63,682 nt of DNA from Gammaproteobacteria bacterium. Lineage in GTDB: Bacteria; Pseudomonadota; Gammaproteobacteria; GRL18. Of the stretch, positions 38,382 through 49,718 are shown in pieces. Location: NCBI GenBank assembly GCA_015231865.1, contig JADGAU010000002.1, positions 1-63,682 of the forward strand, written 5' to 3'. The number at the start of each line of letters is the position of its first letter. Within the stretch, counting starts at the first letter, position 1. Position numbers and translations under genes: made by a program. The notes beneath the pieces are model-generated. The model did no database searches, had not been told where the DNA came from, and saw nothing but the letters and a program-made list of their open reading frames with translations.

Positions 38382-39872
38382 TTGGTGATTTCATTGAATA
38401 ATAAAACTAATTTATTTACTTCATACTTAATTTTTTTCAAACTACTGATTGTTTCTTTGATACTGACTTTTTTTTATAGTAATTCATTATTAGCTAACGC
38501 GAGACATGCTTTAGTTATTGGCAATAGTGATTATGATTTTGGCCCTCTTGCGAATCCTGAAAATGATGCTAATGGCTTAGCAGAAACCTTAAAATCAGTT
38601 GGTTTTAAGGTTACTTTAAAAACAAATGCTAGCCAAATTGAAATGGAGGATGCCATTAGAGAATTTGGATTTAAATTAAGAAAGGGTGGCGTCGGTTTAT
38701 TTTACTTTGCCGGACATGGCGTACAGCTAGGTGGTCAAAATTATTTAATACCGATAGGTGCGAGAATTTCCAGTGCTAAAGATGTGAAATATCATGCTGT
38801 TGATATAGGCCAGGTATTAGATGAAATGGATGAAGCTAGAAATGGCTTAAATATTGTTGTACTAGATGCCTGTCGAAATAACCCATTTAAAGCCGAATCA
38901 CGCGCATTTAACACTAGAGGTTTAGCAAAAATAGACGGGCCAAGAGGCAGTTTAATTGCATATGCAACTGCGCCCGGTAGTGTTGCATCAGATGGCCAGG
39001 GGGATAATAGTCCCTATGCAAAACATTTAATGCAAGCAATTAAAACACCTGGTCTGCAACTGGAACAAGTATTTAAAAAAGTGTTAAGAGGCGTTGACAA
39101 AGAAACCGAACAAAAGCAGGTACCCTGGGTATCATCATCATATACCGGTGAATTTTATTTTATGGATAGCCCTTCCTCCATCCCTGAACCACCCATCCCT
39201 GAACCAGATATTTTGCCTATGCCAGTTTCAGATTCTAAACCACAAACAGATGAAATACCATCTATCGACAGAGAAACTTCAGTAAATGATAATAACGATG
39301 AAATTATTAATGATGTAGTAGTAATTTCTTCTAATCTGTCTGATATTATTGTCATTCCAACATTTTACAACCAATCTAATGGTCGAATACTTGACAAGTT
39401 AAGAAGAAATTATTCTGATTATGATTTTGATGTGCTGCCTTCTCTAATAAGTCAGAAAATAACATCTGAGCTTGTCAATAAGAGTAAAATGACAATAATT
39501 GAGTCAGGAACACTTAAAATAAACTCTTTAGCAAATATGGTCTCAGAAGCTAAAAAACAGGGGGCTAAATATCTTGTTGTTTCAGAAATTAAAGGAATTC
39601 ATATTGATAGCAAATTAAGCTCGGTGCCTTATATGCCTGTCAATAGGAAGCGATATACTGCTTCAATTAATATCAATACTAAGGTGATTGAATCAGCAAC
39701 TAAAAGAGTATTGTCGACTCAGATGAAAAATTATAAAAGTCAATATTCTTCAACATTAAAAGAAGGCAATGACGGATCAGATGAAGGTATTGTTATCTCT
39801 CAACTAATGAATGATTTAACAAATAAAATAGCCCTTAGTGAAGTACCATCTGTTTTAAAATCAATTAAGTAA
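38382..39872 (+). CDS. caspase-like (C14) protein with C-terminal CsgG/LpoB-like region
   Basis: Protein of about 496 residues from a TTG start; GTG at 38385 or TTG at 38394 are alternatives. A hydrophobic N-terminal segment (about 13-35) is a signal peptide or anchor. The caspase/metacaspase fold begins ARHALVIGNSDY; the catalytic dyad is H112 (FAGHGVQ) and C164 (LDACRNNPF). A proline-rich linker (about 267-285) leads to a C-terminal domain with alternating strands (IIVIPTF, KYLVVSEIKGI) that resembles CsgG/LpoB folds. It starts a run of four same-strand envelope genes. Substrate and trigger are unknown. Confidence 0.85.
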   Translation: MVISLNNKTNLFTSYLIFFKLLIVSLILTFFYSNSLLANARHALVIGNSDYDFGPLANPENDANGLAETLKSVGFKVTLKTNASQIEMEDAIREFGFKLRKGGVGLFYFAGHGVQLGGQNYLIPIGARISSAKDVKYHAVDIGQVLDEMDEARNGLNIVVLDACRNNPFKAESRAFNTRGLAKIDGPRGSLIAYATAPGSVASDGQGDNSPYAKHLMQAIKTPGLQLEQVFKKVLRGVDKETEQKQVPWVSSSYTGEFYFMDSPSSIPEPPIPEPDILPMPVSDSKPQTDEIPSIDRETSVNDNNDEIINDVVVISSNLSDIIVIPTFYNQSNGRILDKLRRNYSDYDFDVLPSLISQKITSELVNKSKMTIIESGTLKINSLANMVSEAKKQGAKYLVVSEIKGIHIDSKLSSVPYMPVNRKRYTASININTKVIESATKRVLSTQMKNYKSQYSSTLKEGNDGSDEGIVISQLMNDLTNKIALSEVPSVLKSIK

Positions 39873-39901
39873 TAATCCTAAAAACTCGTGAGAAGAATAT
39901 T

Positions 39902-40525
39902 ATGTTAAGAGCAGTTTATTTCAATATAATGACAATTTGTTGTGCCTTTACTTTAGTGGCCTGTAATTCAACAACTCAATCTTTCAGTAAAGATTCAAAT
40001 ATCGTGCTCAGCCAGAAAAGCAAAATAATAACGGCAAATATTGATTCGAAAGATTACAATAAAATTGCAAAGTTTTTACACCAGTCTCTTCAGGATAGCT
40101 CTAGAATAAAGCAAAAATCTACCGTTGCTTTGGGTCCTGTATCTTTAAAATTTGATAATGATGGTAAGATTGATATTGTACGTATGCAGGAAAAAATTCA
40201 AGTTCTTGCTCACAAAAGTGATACTTTTAATTTTTCTTTTGCGGTTGATGCTATTTCCGGTGAATCCGCAGCAATGGAGAGATATAAAATCATGGAACTA
40301 CAATGGGAACAGCAAAACACTATTGACCCTCTAAGTTTAAAAACCTTTGGAGATTTGGTTCCTGTTGATTACTTATTGTTTGGTAGAGTCTCATCAACTA
40401 CAGCAAAGTCCGTTCAAGGTGAAGAAACCACTTATGTCTATAATTGGAAATTAGGTGATTGTAAGACTGGACTTTTAGTCTGGACTGACGAAATGGAGTT
40501 GGTTAAACGCATCTATAAGAAATAG
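39902..40525 (+). CDS. LpoB-like lipoprotein
   Basis: Predicted lipoprotein of 207 residues with lipobox LVAC (Cys about residue 21). The mature domain, ending in FGDLVPVDYLLFGRVSS and YNWKLGDCKTGLLVWTDE, resembles the LpoB family of outer-membrane activators of penicillin-binding protein 1B. It is a clear paralogue of the first 200 residues of the next gene, sharing RYKIM-LQWE, FGRVSS and WKLGDCKTGLLVWTDE. It lies 29 bases after the caspase-like gene. A role in peptidoglycan synthesis is inferred from the fold only. Confidence 0.72.
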   Translation: MLRAVYFNIMTICCAFTLVACNSTTQSFSKDSNIVLSQKSKIITANIDSKDYNKIAKFLHQSLQDSSRIKQKSTVALGPVSLKFDNDGKIDIVRMQEKIQVLAHKSDTFNFSFAVDAISGESAAMERYKIMELQWEQQNTIDPLSLKTFGDLVPVDYLLFGRVSSTTAKSVQGEETTYVYNWKLGDCKTGLLVWTDEMELVKRIYKK

Positions 40526-40605
40526 TTACGTTCTATTTTTTATAGATATTATTTCTTTTTAAAATTATTTTATACTTTCAAATCAACTATATAGGAATAG
40601 CTTAA

Positions 40606-42360
40606 ATGTTTAATTTTCCTAAGCACTCATTTTTTTATAAACTTTTTTATTCCATTACTATATCACTATTGTTAATTTTAACATCCTGTAATAATTTACA
40701 CTCAGATGTTTCTCTTACAGGTTCACCTAAGTTGATAACTTTTAGAATCGATGCTGCTGACTATAATAATATTTCACAAAAATTATCGAGTAAATTACTA
40801 ACTGATAATAAAGTTCTTAATAATAAGGGTAAGGTTTTAGCTCTCGGGCCTGTTGATTTAAGTTCAACAATATATCGAATTGATCCTCGAACTCTTCAGG
40901 AAAAACTGCAAACAACTTTGCATAAATCTGGAAATTTACAGGTTACTTTTGCAGTAGATGCCATGAAAGATAATTCTGCGGCAGAAGCGAGATATAAAAT
41001 CATGCAACTACAATGGGAAAAAGAAAGCCTGGTCGATCCAAAAGATCTAAAAACGTTTGGGCAACTGGCAAATATTGATTATTTGTTATTTGGTCGAGTG
41101 TCATCCCAGCAAACAGTGCAAGGTGATAAAACAGAAGTGACCTATACGTATAACTGGAAACTGGGAGATTGTAAAACCGGCTTATTAGTTTGGACGGATG
41201 AAGAAGAAATTAATAAACGTGGAAATACGCCTTCTGTACCAGGCTGGGTGCTTGATAGAAGAAATGGTGAAGATGATCACTATTATTATGAAATAGGGCA
41301 TGCAAAAGAACAAAATACTTTAGAAAAGGCTCGTATTGCTGCTATGGAGAATGCAAAGGAGCTTATAGCTAATAGAAACCAGCACCTTCTTCCTATGGAT
41401 GAAACCGGACTGGTTCATCCGATACAAGGAAAAGAACTTAAAGTTCAGATGTTGCCACAGGGCTTATATACGAATAAAACGTCAAAAGGTTTTCAAGCCT
41501 GGATAATCGTTAAACATAAAAAAGAAAGTTATGAAAAATTACTTAAAGAACGCAATAAAATTTTAAGCTTATCACTTGAAGCAGAAAAACTTACTAGAGA
41601 GGCTTTACAGTCTTCAAAGCAATTTCAACGTAGAAAATACTATAACCAGGCAATTGCTCAATTAAATTCTATAAAGGTGACTTATCCAATTGCAAATAGT
41701 AATGGTGTTAATACCGAACGATTACTTTTTAATCTGGCAGATTTATATAAACAGGTTGATGGTTCCTGTGCTGCACAGGATATATATCAATCAATAATTG
41801 ATCGTTCATCAAAATCTGAATGGATAGATAAATCTCATGCTCAATTAAAACAAGTGAATTGTGGTAAAAAAGAAAGAGCACAATTTTTATTATCTAAGCG
41901 TTTTTCGGGAAAAAAAGTTTCGGTTCTGGCTGCATATCGTACAAATGGAAAAATTCACTATTGGAAAAAGATAGATCAGTTAATGATTAAATATTTAAAT
42001 GGATTGGGTAGTCAAATATCCTCTGCTAGTAAAAAAGTTGGTGCCAATAAAATTATTAAGATTAGTAATGCTAATGGCAAATTTAATAATTCAAGTGATA
42101 TCTCTCTTGTCGTCGCAGCGATTGGAGAAATGATTCAGCGTAGTAATAAAAACAACCCTAATGGCAAAGATTTTCGTTTTAAGGGGGAAATCAAAACTTA
42201 TACGATTGATGCGGGGCAATTAACTTTTATCGATGAATATAATGGTCTATCAGGTTGGAACCCAATTAGTGAATCCATGGTTATGGAGGTTGTAGCGATT
42301 CAAGCCTTTAATCGGTGGAAGAAGGAATATAAAAGATATCTGGGCACACAGGATAACTAA
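40606..42360 (+). CDS. LpoB-like lipoprotein with LPP20-like and helical extensions
   Basis: Predicted lipoprotein of 584 residues: lipobox LTSC near residue 28, an LpoB-like domain (about 40-200) paralogous to the preceding gene, then an LPP20-like domain (about 207-310; PGWVLDRR, YYYEIGHAKEQ, KARIAAMENAKEL), then a TPR-like helical region (about 320-420) and a C-terminal domain I do not recognise. The combination suggests a multi-domain scaffold at the inner face of the outer membrane. Gaps to the neighbours are 80 and 31 bases. Confidence 0.7.
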   Translation: MFNFPKHSFFYKLFYSITISLLLILTSCNNLHSDVSLTGSPKLITFRIDAADYNNISQKLSSKLLTDNKVLNNKGKVLALGPVDLSSTIYRIDPRTLQEKLQTTLHKSGNLQVTFAVDAMKDNSAAEARYKIMQLQWEKESLVDPKDLKTFGQLANIDYLLFGRVSSQQTVQGDKTEVTYTYNWKLGDCKTGLLVWTDEEEINKRGNTPSVPGWVLDRRNGEDDHYYYEIGHAKEQNTLEKARIAAMENAKELIANRNQHLLPMDETGLVHPIQGKELKVQMLPQGLYTNKTSKGFQAWIIVKHKKESYEKLLKERNKILSLSLEAEKLTREALQSSKQFQRRKYYNQAIAQLNSIKVTYPIANSNGVNTERLLFNLADLYKQVDGSCAAQDIYQSIIDRSSKSEWIDKSHAQLKQVNCGKKERAQFLLSKRFSGKKVSVLAAYRTNGKIHYWKKIDQLMIKYLNGLGSQISSASKKVGANKIIKISNANGKFNNSSDISLVVAAIGEMIQRSNKNNPNGKDFRFKGEIKTYTIDAGQLTFIDEYNGLSGWNPISESMVMEVVAIQAFNRWKKEYKRYLGTQDN

Positions 42361-42391
42361 AAGAATAATGTATTAATGATAGGGAGTTAAT

Positions 42392-43549
42392 ATGAAGTCA
42401 AAGCATAATAAACTTACTCAGCCGCTACTGTTTTTATTTTTGATTGTTGGTTTTATGCAAATTTGTATGGCCAATACTGCTTTTTCACTGGCAGAGTTAA
42501 AAGAAAAAAAAGTGGCTATTGCTGTATTTTCCCAGGACAAAGCATCAAAGAAATTTGAACGTATGGTGCAGTCACGTTTAGAAGATATCCTATCCGATAA
42601 TGAGGTGGAAGTTTTAGATAGAGATAAGGTTAAGGATTTAAAAAATGTCTGGAAAAACCTTGAGGATCCTGGGTATTTTGTAACTGCCGAAGATTTTGTT
42701 AACAATGCAGCTAGTTATGAATTAGATGGGCTGATTCGAGTTTATTTAGGTGCCGATGTAGAGAAAGGACTTGCGGATTATTATTCGGCTACCGGTAGTG
42801 TTGATATTCGAGTCGTTAAAGCGGATGCAAAAGTATCTTCGGCTACAAATACCCCAATGGGCGGACCAGGAAAACCTCCATCTGATGGACTAACAAAGTC
42901 AAGTGCCATTAAAAATGCTTTACAAAGAGCTCTCGATGAAGCTGTAATGAAAGTTGGCTTTAAGGTGTTTGATGAAGCAAGCCCACGTTCATTTGTACTT
43001 AATCTGGGGGAACCATCCACCACAAATGAAAAACTATTATCAGATTATTCCATGAGCAATGATGAATCATTATGGAAACATGTTGAACTAATTGATAAAA
43101 CATGGACTTGGGAAGTTATTACCGGAACAGTTGTATCGCCAGGTAATAGTACAGCAGCTCTTGCCGGTTATATAACAGACGGAGGACCTCGTTCAAGGAC
43201 ATATTCTTCCAAAATTCACTTGCTGGATGTCAAAGAAGGAAAAGAAATTTCAACCTATAACTCAACTACGAAAGCAAAAAAAGCTAGAGGTTTCTTTGAT
43301 CTTGGTGTTGGAATAAGCAGTAAGGTTTTAGATATGATGTTCTTAGGTAATTGGCGTTATTTAGCGGCAGTTTCGGCACATGGATTAATTATTTGGGATA
43401 CTGAAAGAGGAAGAGTTATTTCATCCGTTGAATTGCCAAAACCGGCAAAAATGGCTCAATTGTTGACTAAGAATGATGAGGAAGGTAGTCAATTGATAGT
43501 AAAAACGAATAATGAATCTTATAAATATGCTTTGACTTTGAAAAAGTAA
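42392..43549 (+). CDS. CsgG-like exported protein with beta-propeller-like C terminus
   Basis: Predicted exported protein of 385 residues (signal peptide to about residue 29, no lipobox). Residues 35-195 follow the CsgG/FlgT-like pattern: KKVAIAVFSQD, EVLDRDKVKDL, DGLIRVYLG, SVDIRVVKADAKV and a helix NALQRALDEAV. Residues about 230-385 contain strand motifs like WD-type blades (WKHVELIDKTWTWEV, LAAVSAHGLIIWDTERGRV). GGGAG precedes the ATG. It closes the four-gene cluster. Confidence 0.65.
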   Translation: MKSKHNKLTQPLLFLFLIVGFMQICMANTAFSLAELKEKKVAIAVFSQDKASKKFERMVQSRLEDILSDNEVEVLDRDKVKDLKNVWKNLEDPGYFVTAEDFVNNAASYELDGLIRVYLGADVEKGLADYYSATGSVDIRVVKADAKVSSATNTPMGGPGKPPSDGLTKSSAIKNALQRALDEAVMKVGFKVFDEASPRSFVLNLGEPSTTNEKLLSDYSMSNDESLWKHVELIDKTWTWEVITGTVVSPGNSTAALAGYITDGGPRSRTYSSKIHLLDVKEGKEISTYNSTTKAKKARGFFDLGVGISSKVLDMMFLGNWRYLAAVSAHGLIIWDTERGRVISSVELPKPAKMAQLLTKNDEEGSQLIVKTNNESYKYALTLKK

Positions 43550-44840: not shown

Positions 44841-47800
44841 TCACACTTGATCTTGCACACCGACAAGTTGTACATCAATTTTATTGTCTTCGATAGTTTC
44901 TGTGCCAATATCCATCTCAAAACGTGATTCATACACATCAATGTCAAGACCATTCATTGCCCAGTCAATTTCTAGTAGAGGGCCAAAACTATAATCAATT
45001 GGAACCTCAAGTGTTGGCCAGAGGCTATTGGGGTTATCACTATCCAACAGTTCGGCAAGTGGTAATTTAATTTTTGCTTCTAGGGCTGCAGCTAGAAAGT
45101 CAAGTTCTAACCCAAGGTTAAGACCAAGTTCAGTATCGTTGGAGAACATGGCTGTTGGTACTAATTGCAGATCATATTCGACGATTCCATCACCATCCAC
45201 ATCGAATTTCTCTGCTGCACTTTCTATGACAAGGTTATCAGCGTCACTTGCAGAAAAAGAAAATACTGTCTCATCCTCCATTGTTACAATATAACTCATA
45301 TCATCAACGGTTAGTGTAAAGTCCTGAGAAAAGTCAGCTGAAGCGATAACATCTGCATCAACCCTGGTATAGGTGTATTCTAGATTGAGAAAGTCTGTAA
45401 TTTGATCAACTGTTTCTGCAGGAACTTCAGCTATTTTTAGTAAAGTCTCAAGCCCCAATTTTTGCTCAAAGGGATTAAGTAGTTCATCTGGAATTGCTTC
45501 CAGAACACTTGCAGCACCGGCAGATGCCGCAGTAGCTACTTTTTTAAGAATCTGTGAAATAACGACAGCAGCAATAGCATCTACATCAATGGTAATAGAA
45601 ACAAAGGGATCACTTTCACCAGAAGAAGCATAGAGACCAAGAGATGCTGTATCTTCATCAATGTCACTTTGATAATCATATAGTGCTGTTTCCAGATTAC
45701 CTTCAACAAGGCCCTGGATTAATTTATCTGTATTGAAATCCCAGGTATTGTAATGAAATAGAGCTTCACTGGTGGTATTTGTTAAGTCAACCATGATAAT
45801 CGTACCAGTTTCATATTGACCATCAATGAAGTCAAGAAACTCATTCCCCACATTCTCTGCCATACCCATTGCCACACCAAGTATGATTTCATCCAACTCA
45901 GCCTCGCTCACAAATTCATCTAGACTACCGTATTCTGAAATAAAAGCCGTCGAAGTGTTGAGAATGTTGGTGACTTTTTCACCCAGTTCAATGGTTGCAT
46001 TTTCAAATGCACTAGTAAGCTGTTCAAGATTGACGACTTCGAAGATATCAGAGGCTTCATCAATAGCCTCATCAAAATAGTAATCATCAATATTTTCACC
46101 AAAAGTCTGTTCAAGAGGATCATCCGCTACACCAAACAAATCCTTTAATTGGTAGGAATAAGAATTGGTAATAGCATTTATCACATCTTGTTCACTCACA
46201 TAGGCAGCTTCTGTTTCAACGGTTGGAATCTTCACCTCAACTTTCTCAATAATTCCTTTGGTTAGATCATCGAGACCGGGAACAGCTACCGCTTCGGCAT
46301 CTTTTGAGTCAAGGTCCAGAATAACAAGTTCCCCCGGATTTTCAGGGAGTCCAAGATCAATTTCGATTCCGTATTCATCCATCATATCCTGGTAACTTTT
46401 AACCTCATCAAGTTGTGCTATGTATGGAATACCATTTTCATCGTATTCAAACATATAGTTAGCTCCGGTTGTTGAGATGGTTGGTGAAAAGTTGATGCCT
46501 CCCAGATCGAAGATAGGATAATCAGCTATCGCTAGTGAACCATCAATGTATAAATCCAGGTCAGCACCCACATCATAAAGCAGAGCTGCATAGATAGAAG
46601 CATTGGGACTCACTGTACTAAATGGTGTCAATGTGTCATCGTCAAGATTATAGAGTGAGGGAGTGATTGCCAGTTGATCGCTAGACTGGTTGTATTCAGT
46701 TACCGAGGTCAACTTATATTGAACATCGGTATCGACTGAACCGGCATCAAGGATAAAGTCCAGTTGTAAGCCTGCTCTGGCAAAGAGGTCGGCATCAACA
46801 GTGATCTCACTATTGACATCAATAGTATTGGCCAGGCTAAGTATATTATCTATTCCGGCCGAAACACCGTCATATACCACTTGTGCTGCTGCTTCAACTG
46901 CTGCTTTAGCCGTATCATAGACAAGTTTCGCACCATCATAAACGTCTTGTGCGGTATCAAAAATAGCTTCAGCAGCATTATAAATACCTTGCTTAACCCC
47001 TTCATACACATTATATGCAGTGTTATATGTAGCGATTGCAGCGTTATAAATATCTTCTGCCGCAGAATATATTCCATCTTTTACAGCTTGGTAAGCATCT
47101 GCAGCTGTATTCCAGACCCCTCTGGCCAGCTCATATGCAGCATTGATCTCATCAGTTAAGACATTAAGAAAATCAGCTGCATGTGCCACATCACGTGCAG
47201 TTGTAGCCGTCTCATAAAATGCGTAATGAGCGGCATCATAAATTGCTTTTTCTGTACTATTAACTAGATATCGGGTATCTAAAAATGTTTGATATGCCGT
47301 ATCAAAAACCAGTTTAGCAGCATCAAAAGTGGCTTTTGCACCTGTATCTATAGCATAAGCCGTATTATAAAATGTCTGCTTAGCCGTATCATAAACCAAC
47401 TGAGCAGCATTAAATGTGGCTTGTACTCCCGCATCAACCACATAGGCTGTTGTATCAAAAACTTCTTTAGCACCATCTATAACATCTTGTGCATAAGCAG
47501 CAATCATTGTATTTAACTCAATACTGGAGTAGTTAATATCTACAACATTAAACTCTCCGCTTCGCCAATACTCTGCTCCGGTATCCTGCCAACCGTTTTG
47601 TTTATCCCATTGCATAAAGTCATTACCTAACATGGGGTAATATTCATGAAACTGAAAATTCAGGTTTTCTAAATCCACATACAGGCCGTAATCCTGCATA
47701 TCTTCCCAAATGCTAAGTTCGCTGACTTCTCCAAAGTCAAAGTTTCCCCACATACTTTGATCAACATTGGTAAATGCTATATTGGTATTGGAAATATTTT

Positions 47801-49211
47801 TATCATAGAGTAATTCAACTGTCTGAATATTTTCACCAATTACAGTACCATTCGTTTCTATACCTGCGACGGTAATATCAACAGGTTCTAGCACATCATC
47901 ATTCATGATCAGGGTAAAAAGATGGTCGCCCAGATAGTCTGAATTAGTATAAAAATTGGCTATACCATTGGTCACATCATTACCATTGGTATCATAAACT
48001 CTGGCATTGGAACTGAGCTTATCAAAACGTAATTGCACCTTCTCATCTCGTGCCGGTTCACTTTTTATTTGTAACAACAGGGTATTTACTTTATCACCTG
48101 CCGAGGTGATAACCTCGATCGATGGCGCATCTGTATAGCCTTCAATATCAACTGTTAATGACTGCTCTACTATTGCACCATGTTCATCAACAATGTCATA
48201 GTTAAAAAGCAATTGTCCCCATTCGTCATCGTTTAATTCATCAAAATGGTTCTGATTAATCGTTACGCTATCACCATTTATATTATAACCACCCAGTGTA
48301 AATGACTCAGTAATTCCATCAGCTTTTTTAAAAGCTTTAACCTTAACGTTAGCTATATGCAATATTGCATTATTATCAATATCTGATGCTCCATCGAGAA
48401 GATCAATTGTATAGGGTACAAGCTCTTCATGAGTAATGCTTGTCAATGGAGAAGCAATAGTTGGAGTATCATTGATTCCTGTAATAGTTAGTTTAACTTC
48501 ATCTAAATTACTGAAAGCTGCATGTGAATCCTCAGCCTTCCAGTTGAATGAATAACTTTGTGTTTCTCCAAAAGCTAAACTCTGGTAGTGCTCTATGCTC
48601 GCATCAAGGCTATAGTTACCATCAGCATTAAACGAAAACCCTGGAATATTTGTATTAGAAAAATGATAAGTTAATGTTGTACTATCATCATCACTATCAA
48701 TATCATAGGCAATCAACTGATTGGATAATATTTTATCTTCTAAAATATTCTGGTCTTCTTCATTAATCATTTCAGGTGCTTCATTGGTTCCAGTTACCTC
48801 AATGGTTACTTCTCGAACTACCTGAGTTGAGCTATCTTTGCCATTTTCTACCAGATAGCTAAATGAAAATTCAGCTACTTCATCTTGCGCCAATTTTTCA
48901 AAATCTTCATTGTAAATAGAAAAAGTACCGTCAGAATTAAAAAGTATTTGTGTCTTAGTGGGGTCGATAAGTTCAGAGGTCGTTGACATAAAGACCTCTT
49001 GCTTTCCTTTATATATAGACTTCAATAAAGAGAAAAAATTGACTTTTTCATCACCTTTATTAAAGTCAAACATGCTTGATGGAATAACTTCTGAAAATGT
49101 AATGTCATTTTTATTAAATAAAGGAGTTATTCCGTCTGAATGAAATGGTATAAAAATATTAGGATCTTTTAGGACTTTATGGGTTTGTCCAAGAATTTTT
49201 GCAGTTGCCAT
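44841..49211 (-). CDS. giant VCBS-type surface or secreted protein with helical repeats
   Basis: Predicted protein of 1456 residues from the ATG at 49211 (MATAKILGQ), which has AGGAGA upstream; the frame is open to 49295 but that part is membrane-like and lacks support. Residues about 40-400 are VCBS/cadherin-like modules (VTGTNEAPEM, LTITGINDTPTI, NADGNYSLDA). Residues 584-785 are a block of Ala/Tyr/Asp-rich helical repeats of about 29 residues. The remainder is acidic beta-rich sequence. No signal peptide and no RTX nonapeptides are visible; VCBS proteins are usually exported by type I secretion, but no such genes are adjacent. Substrate or adhesive target unknown. Confidence 0.8.
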   Translation of the reverse strand: MATAKILGQTHKVLKDPNIFIPFHSDGITPLFNKNDITFSEVIPSSMFDFNKGDEKVNFFSLLKSIYKGKQEVFMSTTSELIDPTKTQILFNSDGTFSIYNEDFEKLAQDEVAEFSFSYLVENGKDSSTQVVREVTIEVTGTNEAPEMINEEDQNILEDKILSNQLIAYDIDSDDDSTTLTYHFSNTNIPGFSFNADGNYSLDASIEHYQSLAFGETQSYSFNWKAEDSHAAFSNLDEVKLTITGINDTPTIASPLTSITHEELVPYTIDLLDGASDIDNNAILHIANVKVKAFKKADGITESFTLGGYNINGDSVTINQNHFDELNDDEWGQLLFNYDIVDEHGAIVEQSLTVDIEGYTDAPSIEVITSAGDKVNTLLLQIKSEPARDEKVQLRFDKLSSNARVYDTNGNDVTNGIANFYTNSDYLGDHLFTLIMNDDVLEPVDITVAGIETNGTVIGENIQTVELLYDKNISNTNIAFTNVDQSMWGNFDFGEVSELSIWEDMQDYGLYVDLENLNFQFHEYYPMLGNDFMQWDKQNGWQDTGAEYWRSGEFNVVDINYSSIELNTMIAAYAQDVIDGAKEVFDTTAYVVDAGVQATFNAAQLVYDTAKQTFYNTAYAIDTGAKATFDAAKLVFDTAYQTFLDTRYLVNSTEKAIYDAAHYAFYETATTARDVAHAADFLNVLTDEINAAYELARGVWNTAADAYQAVKDGIYSAAEDIYNAAIATYNTAYNVYEGVKQGIYNAAEAIFDTAQDVYDGAKLVYDTAKAAVEAAAQVVYDGVSAGIDNILSLANTIDVNSEITVDADLFARAGLQLDFILDAGSVDTDVQYKLTSVTEYNQSSDQLAITPSLYNLDDDTLTPFSTVSPNASIYAALLYDVGADLDLYIDGSLAIADYPIFDLGGINFSPTISTTGANYMFEYDENGIPYIAQLDEVKSYQDMMDEYGIEIDLGLPENPGELVILDLDSKDAEAVAVPGLDDLTKGIIEKVEVKIPTVETEAAYVSEQDVINAITNSYSYQLKDLFGVADDPLEQTFGENIDDYYFDEAIDEASDIFEVVNLEQLTSAFENATIELGEKVTNILNTSTAFISEYGSLDEFVSEAELDEIILGVAMGMAENVGNEFLDFIDGQYETGTIIMVDLTNTTSEALFHYNTWDFNTDKLIQGLVEGNLETALYDYQSDIDEDTASLGLYASSGESDPFVSITIDVDAIAAVVISQILKKVATAASAGAASVLEAIPDELLNPFEQKLGLETLLKIAEVPAETVDQITDFLNLEYTYTRVDADVIASADFSQDFTLTVDDMSYIVTMEDETVFSFSASDADNLVIESAAEKFDVDGDGIVEYDLQLVPTAMFSNDTELGLNLGLELDFLAAALEAKIKLPLAELLDSDNPNSLWPTLEVPIDYSFGPLLEIDWAMNGLDIDVYESRFEMDIGTETIEDNKIDVQLVGVQDQV
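46857..47462 (-). repeat. tandem 87-base / 29-residue helical repeats inside the VCBS gene
   Basis: Encodes residues 584-785. The units alternate 14- and 15-residue half repeats with the pattern hydrophobic-Tyr/Phe-Asp-x-Ala near the start, for example TFNAAQLVYDTAKQ, TFDAAKLVFDTAYQ and GIYNAAEAIFDTAQD. Three units, a 27-residue spacer (671-697), then three more diverged units. Confidence 0.8.
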
Positions 49212-49718
49212 AATATATTCTCCTAATAATAAAACATTATGTAGAAGCATACAAAATAGTAATCTAGCAAGCTTTAATAACAATAAGAAAATCAAGAAAA
49301 CATAAATAGCTATCTGCGATTATTATTTAAAAGTAATATTTTCTTATCTATTATTCACAGGGTGTTGGAGTACATATTTCGATAGGGCTCCTAGTTATTT
49401 TTCTTAGTTAAGAATAATAATCAGGTAACCCAGTCATCTAATATTGACAAGATCTGTGGCTTTCTTACTTCATGCAGAGCAAGGAGTAGGCTTTTTCTGA
49501 AAATTTACCAGTTATATATAAGTAATATATCTTTTTATAAAAATATATATACTACATAATGGGTGTAATTGAAAATAAATAGAGGTATTATTGATTATGA
49601 ATAATGTGGTTAGTGATCAGAGGGGCAGTGTAAATTGAAATTAGCTTATCCTAGAATCAGCCTAAAAGACCTTGATAATAAAATCAATTACTCTGACCCC
49701 ATTGGTCTAAGCATAAAA
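49212..49718. other. AT-rich intergenic region with REP-like motif
   Basis: About 500 bases holding the promoter region of the giant gene. No credible gene. The rluA-proximal end contains the second REP-like motif. Confidence 0.5.
49683..49704. repeat. REP-like motif, copy 2
   Basis: Matches 44817-44838 at 21 of 22 bases, in the same orientation. Together the two copies bracket the giant VCBS gene. A weaker related pair lies at 55826-55836 and 55913-55924. Confidence 0.65.

Follow-up and report, generated by a model that had tools for sequence, protein, structure and literature searches.

A caspase-like protease gene beside LpoB-family lipoprotein genes in a gammaproteobacterial genome: a candidate envelope module

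A set of four neighbouring genes in a Gammaproteobacteria bacterium of the GTDB lineage GRL18 (assembly GCA_015231865.1) joins an exported caspase-like protease, itself ending in a CsgG-like region, with two LpoB-family lipoproteins and an orphan protein that is also exported. The set could tentatively be read as a lineage-specific envelope module in which a platform of LpoB type at the outer membrane would hold the caspase-like protease, a functional reading to which we give somewhat less than an even chance. Within the samples searched, the exact four-gene set is an orphan of its own genome. The pairing of exported caspases with envelope proteins of CsgG, LpoB or LPP20 type looks like a looser theme, assembled several times and in varied compositions.

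Architecture of the locus and domain assignments

The window, meaning the whole stretch of 63,682 nucleotides analysed (contig JADGAU010000002.1), contains the following features.

38382-39872, + strand: gene 1, 496 aa, TTG start; exported caspase-like protease, no lipobox seen; Peptidase_C14 at residues 41-259, a Pro/Asp-rich linker and a CsgG-like region at about residues 350-483
39902-40525, + strand: gene 2, 207 aa; lipoprotein, LpoB family
40606-42360, + strand: gene 3, 584 aa; lipoprotein with an LpoB-family core at residues 56-202, then an LPP20-reminiscent motif (not significant), TPR-like helices at about 311-426 (low-confidence model) and a C-terminus without domain assignment at about 430-584
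42392-43549, + strand: gene 4, 385 aa; exported orphan of no family, C-terminus strand-rich

The ORF coordinates bear out the same-strand arrangement with intergenic gaps of 29, 80 and 31 bases that an earlier note on this DNA had described, and from spacing and strand the four genes probably form one operon. The export signals claimed for all four were likewise recovered: inspection by eye found a Sec-type signal without lipobox at the N-terminus of gene 1 and lipobox-like motifs (LVAC and LTSC) in genes 2 and 3, and gene 4 was classed as exported. A promoter scan of the locus gave candidates at chance level only, and a terminator scan found none. Horizontal gain was considered and set aside, since the base composition gives no sign of it (GC of 0.336-0.370 in the four genes, 0.361 in the window). 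The divergent upstream neighbour carries a DyP-peroxidase C-terminal domain by family profile search; a synteny test through this gene yielded nothing, since in genome G006 the DyP-peroxidase gene has different neighbours. The downstream neighbour, encoded on the opposite strand, may be a small outer-membrane barrel (it matches Opacity and OMP_b-brl, both below their cut-offs), and a repeat-like protein of 1484 aa is encoded just past the operon, also on the opposite strand (44841-49295).

Gene 1 matches PF00656 (Peptidase_C14) over residues 41-259 with an E-value of 1.5e-40 (139.8 bits, cut-off 21.4), and its closest solved structures are the MALT1 paracaspases (E 3.8e-15). His112 and Cys164 align on the His and Cys stretches of human MALT1 and are kept in all 19 aligned caspase sequences (gene 1 and 18 homologues), in agreement with the intact His-Cys dyad of the earlier description. 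Judged from its sequence, the gene 1 product is thus predicted to be exported to the periplasm and to be a caspase-like cysteine protease, of MALT1/metacaspase type, that retains its dyad. Passages of PMC6426788 describe cleavage after positively charged residues for bacterial orthocaspases. Relatives of gene 1 were found in 47 of 369 genomes of the class (own genome counted), mostly along the caspase domain alone, and among 268 matching plasmid records none covers 80% of the gene.

For the C-terminal tail of gene 1 (residues 286-496), Pfam gave no family above cut-off, nor did a fragment scan give a Pfam CsgG match. Its first clue was a phmmer match (1.1e-4, small fetched protein set) to a protein with CsgG/FlgT_C repeats from a genome of the same family. 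With a CsgG profile of 22 domain pieces built for this analysis, hhalign gave the tail a probability of 90.2% (score 44.9; 40 shuffles at or below 17.3). Because the first phmmer match had come from the same-family genome, the profile was rebuilt minus four pieces of that origin (locus L106); the tail then reached 68.9% at a score of 36.6, against 17.6 in shuffles, and 0 of 30 shuffles attained it. The C-terminal region, which the earlier note had called CsgG/LpoB-like, is accordingly CsgG-like by profile comparison, and since genes 2 and 3 score only 11-13% against the same CsgG profile, the tail lies nearer to CsgG than they do.

The two paralogous lipoproteins with an LpoB-like core proved sound. 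PF13036 (LpoB; cut-off 22.3) matches gene 2 at E 2.4e-8 (34.5 bits) and gene 3 at E 1.3e-15 (58 bits), and the two are 49% identical over the core. The NCBIfam equivalog TIGR02722 gives 50.3 and 74.0 bits, respectively, both below its cut-off of 110.55, and they are therefore regarded as family-level relatives and not filed as LpoB itself. They are the sole LpoB-family matches in their own genome, whose assembly is 94.5% complete and so no proof of absence; gene 3 shares at most 32% identity with LpoB-type proteins elsewhere among the matches listed.

The additions proposed for gene 3 fared less well. Its LPP20-like part could not be confirmed: a Pfam search gave neither an LPP20 match nor a family for the helical part, 3 of 995 shuffles outscored it in hmmsearch with the LPP20 profile, hhalign gave 3.5%, a value that 1 of 60 shuffles equalled or exceeded, and the likeness comes down to a motif for which the pattern was written after the motif had been noticed. 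The helical part stands in so far as a model of residues 206-584 built without relatives (mean pLDDT 47) has, after residue 206, a strand-helix-strand-strand order followed by helices resembling TPR arrays. The stretch at about 311-426 superposes on the ideal TPR 1na3 with a Z of 9.6 (rmsd 2.0 over 84 residues), a value short of the caution level that the tool sets for helical repeats, and Foldseek with the gene 3 model returned no match at E <= 0.001; the TPR likeness is subject to the cautions of both tools. A derivation of gene 3 as LpoB fused to the LPP20 and TPR proteins of another operon type was rejected on failed profile tests.

For gene 4, Pfam and NCBIfam searches gave no family over cut-off. 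Neither of the folds proposed for it was confirmed. Its probability against the CsgG profile was 0.7% (6 of 40 shuffles equal or higher) and 0.6% in a second test (0 of 30), the first of these values thus lying among those of the shuffles; the propeller-like strands were sought in a single-sequence model with mean pLDDT 41, in which residues 312-385 alone reach 60-77, all of them strands. PDB sequence searches with whole gene 3, its middle, gene 4 and the gene 1 tail found no convincing match. The CsgG and LpoB families belong to one broad fold group. The shared fold that had been suggested across all four proteins is supported for the gene 1 C-terminus and genes 2 and 3, and is not supported for gene 4.

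Distribution of the set and recurring caspase-envelope pairings

Full-length relatives of gene 3 or gene 4 were absent from 23 other genomes of the order and from the class sample of 369, and those of gene 3 also from 398 genomes of the phylum, a sample that overlaps with that of the class. Gene 3 matched 28 of the 369 class and 39 of the 398 phylum genomes (own genome counted in both); among the matches listed, all foreign ones lie inside about residues 11-246 of 584, essentially the LpoB part. Neither gene 3 nor gene 4 had a full-length relative on plasmids, viral contigs held no relative of gene 4, and scans of genome contigs with short peptide patterns (six for gene 3, two for genes 2 and 3), by which near relatives alone are detectable, returned none. 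Three weak gene 4 matches in three foreign genomes of the class were judged to be chance, as they look by eye like binding proteins of amino-acid ABC transporters with permease-like neighbours. With no such relatives for genes 3 and 4, the whole operon is known from one genome and has no demonstrable co-travel.

The co-occurrence check proposed earlier thus came out divided: the exact set was not found together elsewhere, and the caspase-envelope pairing recurs at the level of domain families. Matches to Peptidase_C14, CsgG, LpoB and LPP20 were located in the 47 genomes matched by gene 1, and clusters within 5 kb were counted. Six pairs were observed against 0.6 expected, or 5 against 0.5 without the own genome; at 8 kb, 5 were found against 0.79. 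One pair (G138:C327) was left out, its CsgG match being below cut-off. Of the 46 caspase-bearing class genomes besides the own one, this leaves 4 in which a caspase gene and a CsgG, LpoB or LPP20 gene lie no more than 5 kb apart (about 0.5 expected). Four pairs against an expectation of 0.79 give a Poisson tail of 0.009; the expectation takes positions as uniform and uses genome sizes that are approximate. These pairs are as follows.

G010 (same-family genome): caspase-PEGA-FGE gene, then a CsgG/FlgT_C gene 91 bases on, same strand; further on, a gene with repeated CsgG/FlgT_C domains
G075: caspase gene, then an LPP20 gene, same strand, 3-base gap
G227 (L131): CsgG gene divergent from a caspase gene
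G191: a row of LPP20-LPP20-LpoB-TPR-LPP20 genes close to a caspase gene, which lies on the other strand

The pairs of G227 and G191 lie on opposite strands and are therefore not operons. Closer at hand, the own genome encodes on contig C111 (L123:6525-8132) one lipoprotein chain with a CsgG-like N-terminus (95.9% and 94.4% with two profiles) and a caspase C-terminus (4.9e-28). Its caspase is 47% identical to the G227 caspase that adjoins the CsgG gene, and in a quick tree these two and a G010 caspase group with full support. Among the independent signs of a joint role for caspases and CsgG-like domains, the L123 fusion with its G227 and G010 kin appears, on sequence grounds, to be the strongest, and it makes the link between them concrete within the own genome.

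Caspase genes are numerous in that genome: its 3.5 Mb hold 12, namely 11 Peptidase_C14 matches and L118:4381-6804 (8.7e-14), on contigs C13, C14, C37, C50 (two), C91, C99, C101, C111, C222, C282 and C284. Their tails vary, and several cluster in the tree, likely reflecting a recent expansion. Excerpts of PMC3501461 give 0.03 caspase homologues per 1000 proteins for Gammaproteobacteria and 28 in Haliscomenobacter, and a passage of PMC4853749 gives 59 in a Thiomargarita genome, the latter two being more than here. Three further loci were observed in passing. On C50 of the own genome, a same-strand row (L118:1823-6804) holds a WD40-like/caspase protein of 807 aa, a weak hydrolase-like lipoprotein and a second caspase whose tail looks FGE-like by eye. 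In G199 (L113:6708-15700), three caspase genes alternate with two serpin genes (Pfam Serpin 4.6e-104 and 5.6e-116) and an OmpA-domain gene, possibly protease-inhibitor pairs in a bacterium. On Parasedimentitalea and Leisingera plasmids (L183, L184), a caspase gene is divergent from an OmpA-family gene, with DUF4384 and ExbB/ExbD genes also adjoining in L183.

Such abundance gives room to the strongest rival explanation, in which two unrelated units, a caspase from a lineage-specific expansion on one side and gene 4 with an LpoB pair resembling PBP activators on the other, are neighbours without joint function, the CsgG-like tail being a generic periplasmic adaptor. With many caspase genes of varied tails in the genome, chance neighbours become likelier here; in the stretches fetched, a CsgG-like part or partner goes with only 2 of the 12, gene 1 and L123. 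Outside this genome, most of the caspase homologues fetched have other tails and other neighbours, and LpoB-type genes mostly have no caspase nearby in the pair count. Against this stand the 29-base same-strand gap between genes 1 and 2, a gene 1 tail that falls into the broad fold group of its neighbours, the excess of caspase-envelope pairs in other genomes and the separate fusion in L123. We consider chance neighbourhood somewhat unlikely.

Candidate mechanism and further alternatives

In the tethered-protease reading, gene 1 would be exported to the periplasm, where its CsgG-like domain would probably dock on an outer-membrane platform formed by both LpoB-family lipoproteins, perhaps with gene 4 as a further part. 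By analogy with LpoB and PBP1B, the lipoproteins may contact or monitor the machinery of cell-wall synthesis; a signal would make them gather the protease or set it free, and the protease could then cut a substrate in the envelope, conceivably one of the set's own proteins. A single outer-membrane assembly with a protease as its effector, as the earlier note had it, stays an inference. A wider proposal holds that a periplasmic caspase, held at the outer membrane through contact of CsgG/LpoB folds and switched by cell-wall sensing through LpoB-like lipoproteins, is in its logic the envelope counterpart of scaffold-activated cytoplasmic caspases and was built repeatedly in different bacteria; this is speculative and, as a whole, unlikely.

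A cell-death or anti-phage module, in which the lipoproteins would sense envelope damage and the caspase would execute death, draws on the PADLOC caspase model PDLC02987, which matches gene 1 at 3e-9, and on passages of PMC3501461 that discuss prokaryotic caspases as cell-death agents. That match spans only part of the caspase domain, however, genes 2-4 match no PADLOC model at E 0.01, and the gene 1 protein is exported, so that we hold this explanation to be quite improbable. A curli-like or other secretion apparatus, with a CsgG/LpoB-fold pore and a protease processing the exported substrate, would agree with the CsgG-like domain of gene 1 but is very improbable, as Pfam CsgG has no match over cut-off anywhere in the own genome or in gene 1 fragments, no secretion substrate was recognised by eye beside the genes, and LpoB is not known to form pores.

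Most prokaryotic caspase homologues have no known role. The partners here come from a family with a known job, the outer-membrane control of peptidoglycan synthases, which would give one such caspase a testable place and substrate class. The gene set is a hint that caspases may, in some bacteria, be anchored at the outer membrane.

Comparison with known systems

Among the class genomes, LPP20-LpoB-TPR-LPP20 and TPR-DUF1425-LpoB clusters resemble the present set in combining LpoB-family lipoproteins with helical-repeat operon partners. They lack a caspase, and the profiles built for this analysis did not link the extra region of gene 3 to their LPP20 or TPR proteins. The cluster of LPP20, LpoB, TPR-like and LPP20 genes recurs in L114, L173, L174 and L175; the TPR-DUF1425-LpoB type, distinct from it, was seen in L035 and, by eye, in L041 and L140. 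According to a passage of PMC11394524, a Helicobacter LpoB homologue adjoins another envelope lipoprotein gene, and no caspase is mentioned there.

According to PMC3060616, LpoB itself is a lipoprotein of the outer membrane which binds PBP1B and stimulates it. Genes 2 and 3 are alike to LpoB (PF13036; TIGR02722) in their lipoprotein signal (by eye) and Pfam domain over cut-off; they differ in falling below the equivalog cut-off, in being two copies beside a caspase and in the length of gene 3, which is about 380 residues longer. The gene 1 C-terminus is similarly related by profile to the CsgG/FlgT family (PF03783, PF16538), from which it departs in having no Pfam CsgG match, in being fused to a protease and in that no pore region was identified in it.

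A literature search that covered few subscription papers found no paper on an envelope system of caspase and CsgG/LpoB proteins, and the term CsgG is absent from the main text of PMC3501461. Excerpts of that source report N-terminal helices, maybe signal peptides, in some prokaryotic caspases, tails of WD40, TPR or FGE-sulfatase type, and OmpA in 14 of their operons. With the prokaryotic caspases (metacaspase, orthocaspase and paracaspase; PF00656), gene 1 shares the domain, the dyad, an N-terminal export signal and an accessory C-terminal domain; unlike those described, it has a CsgG-like tail and operon partners of the LpoB type.
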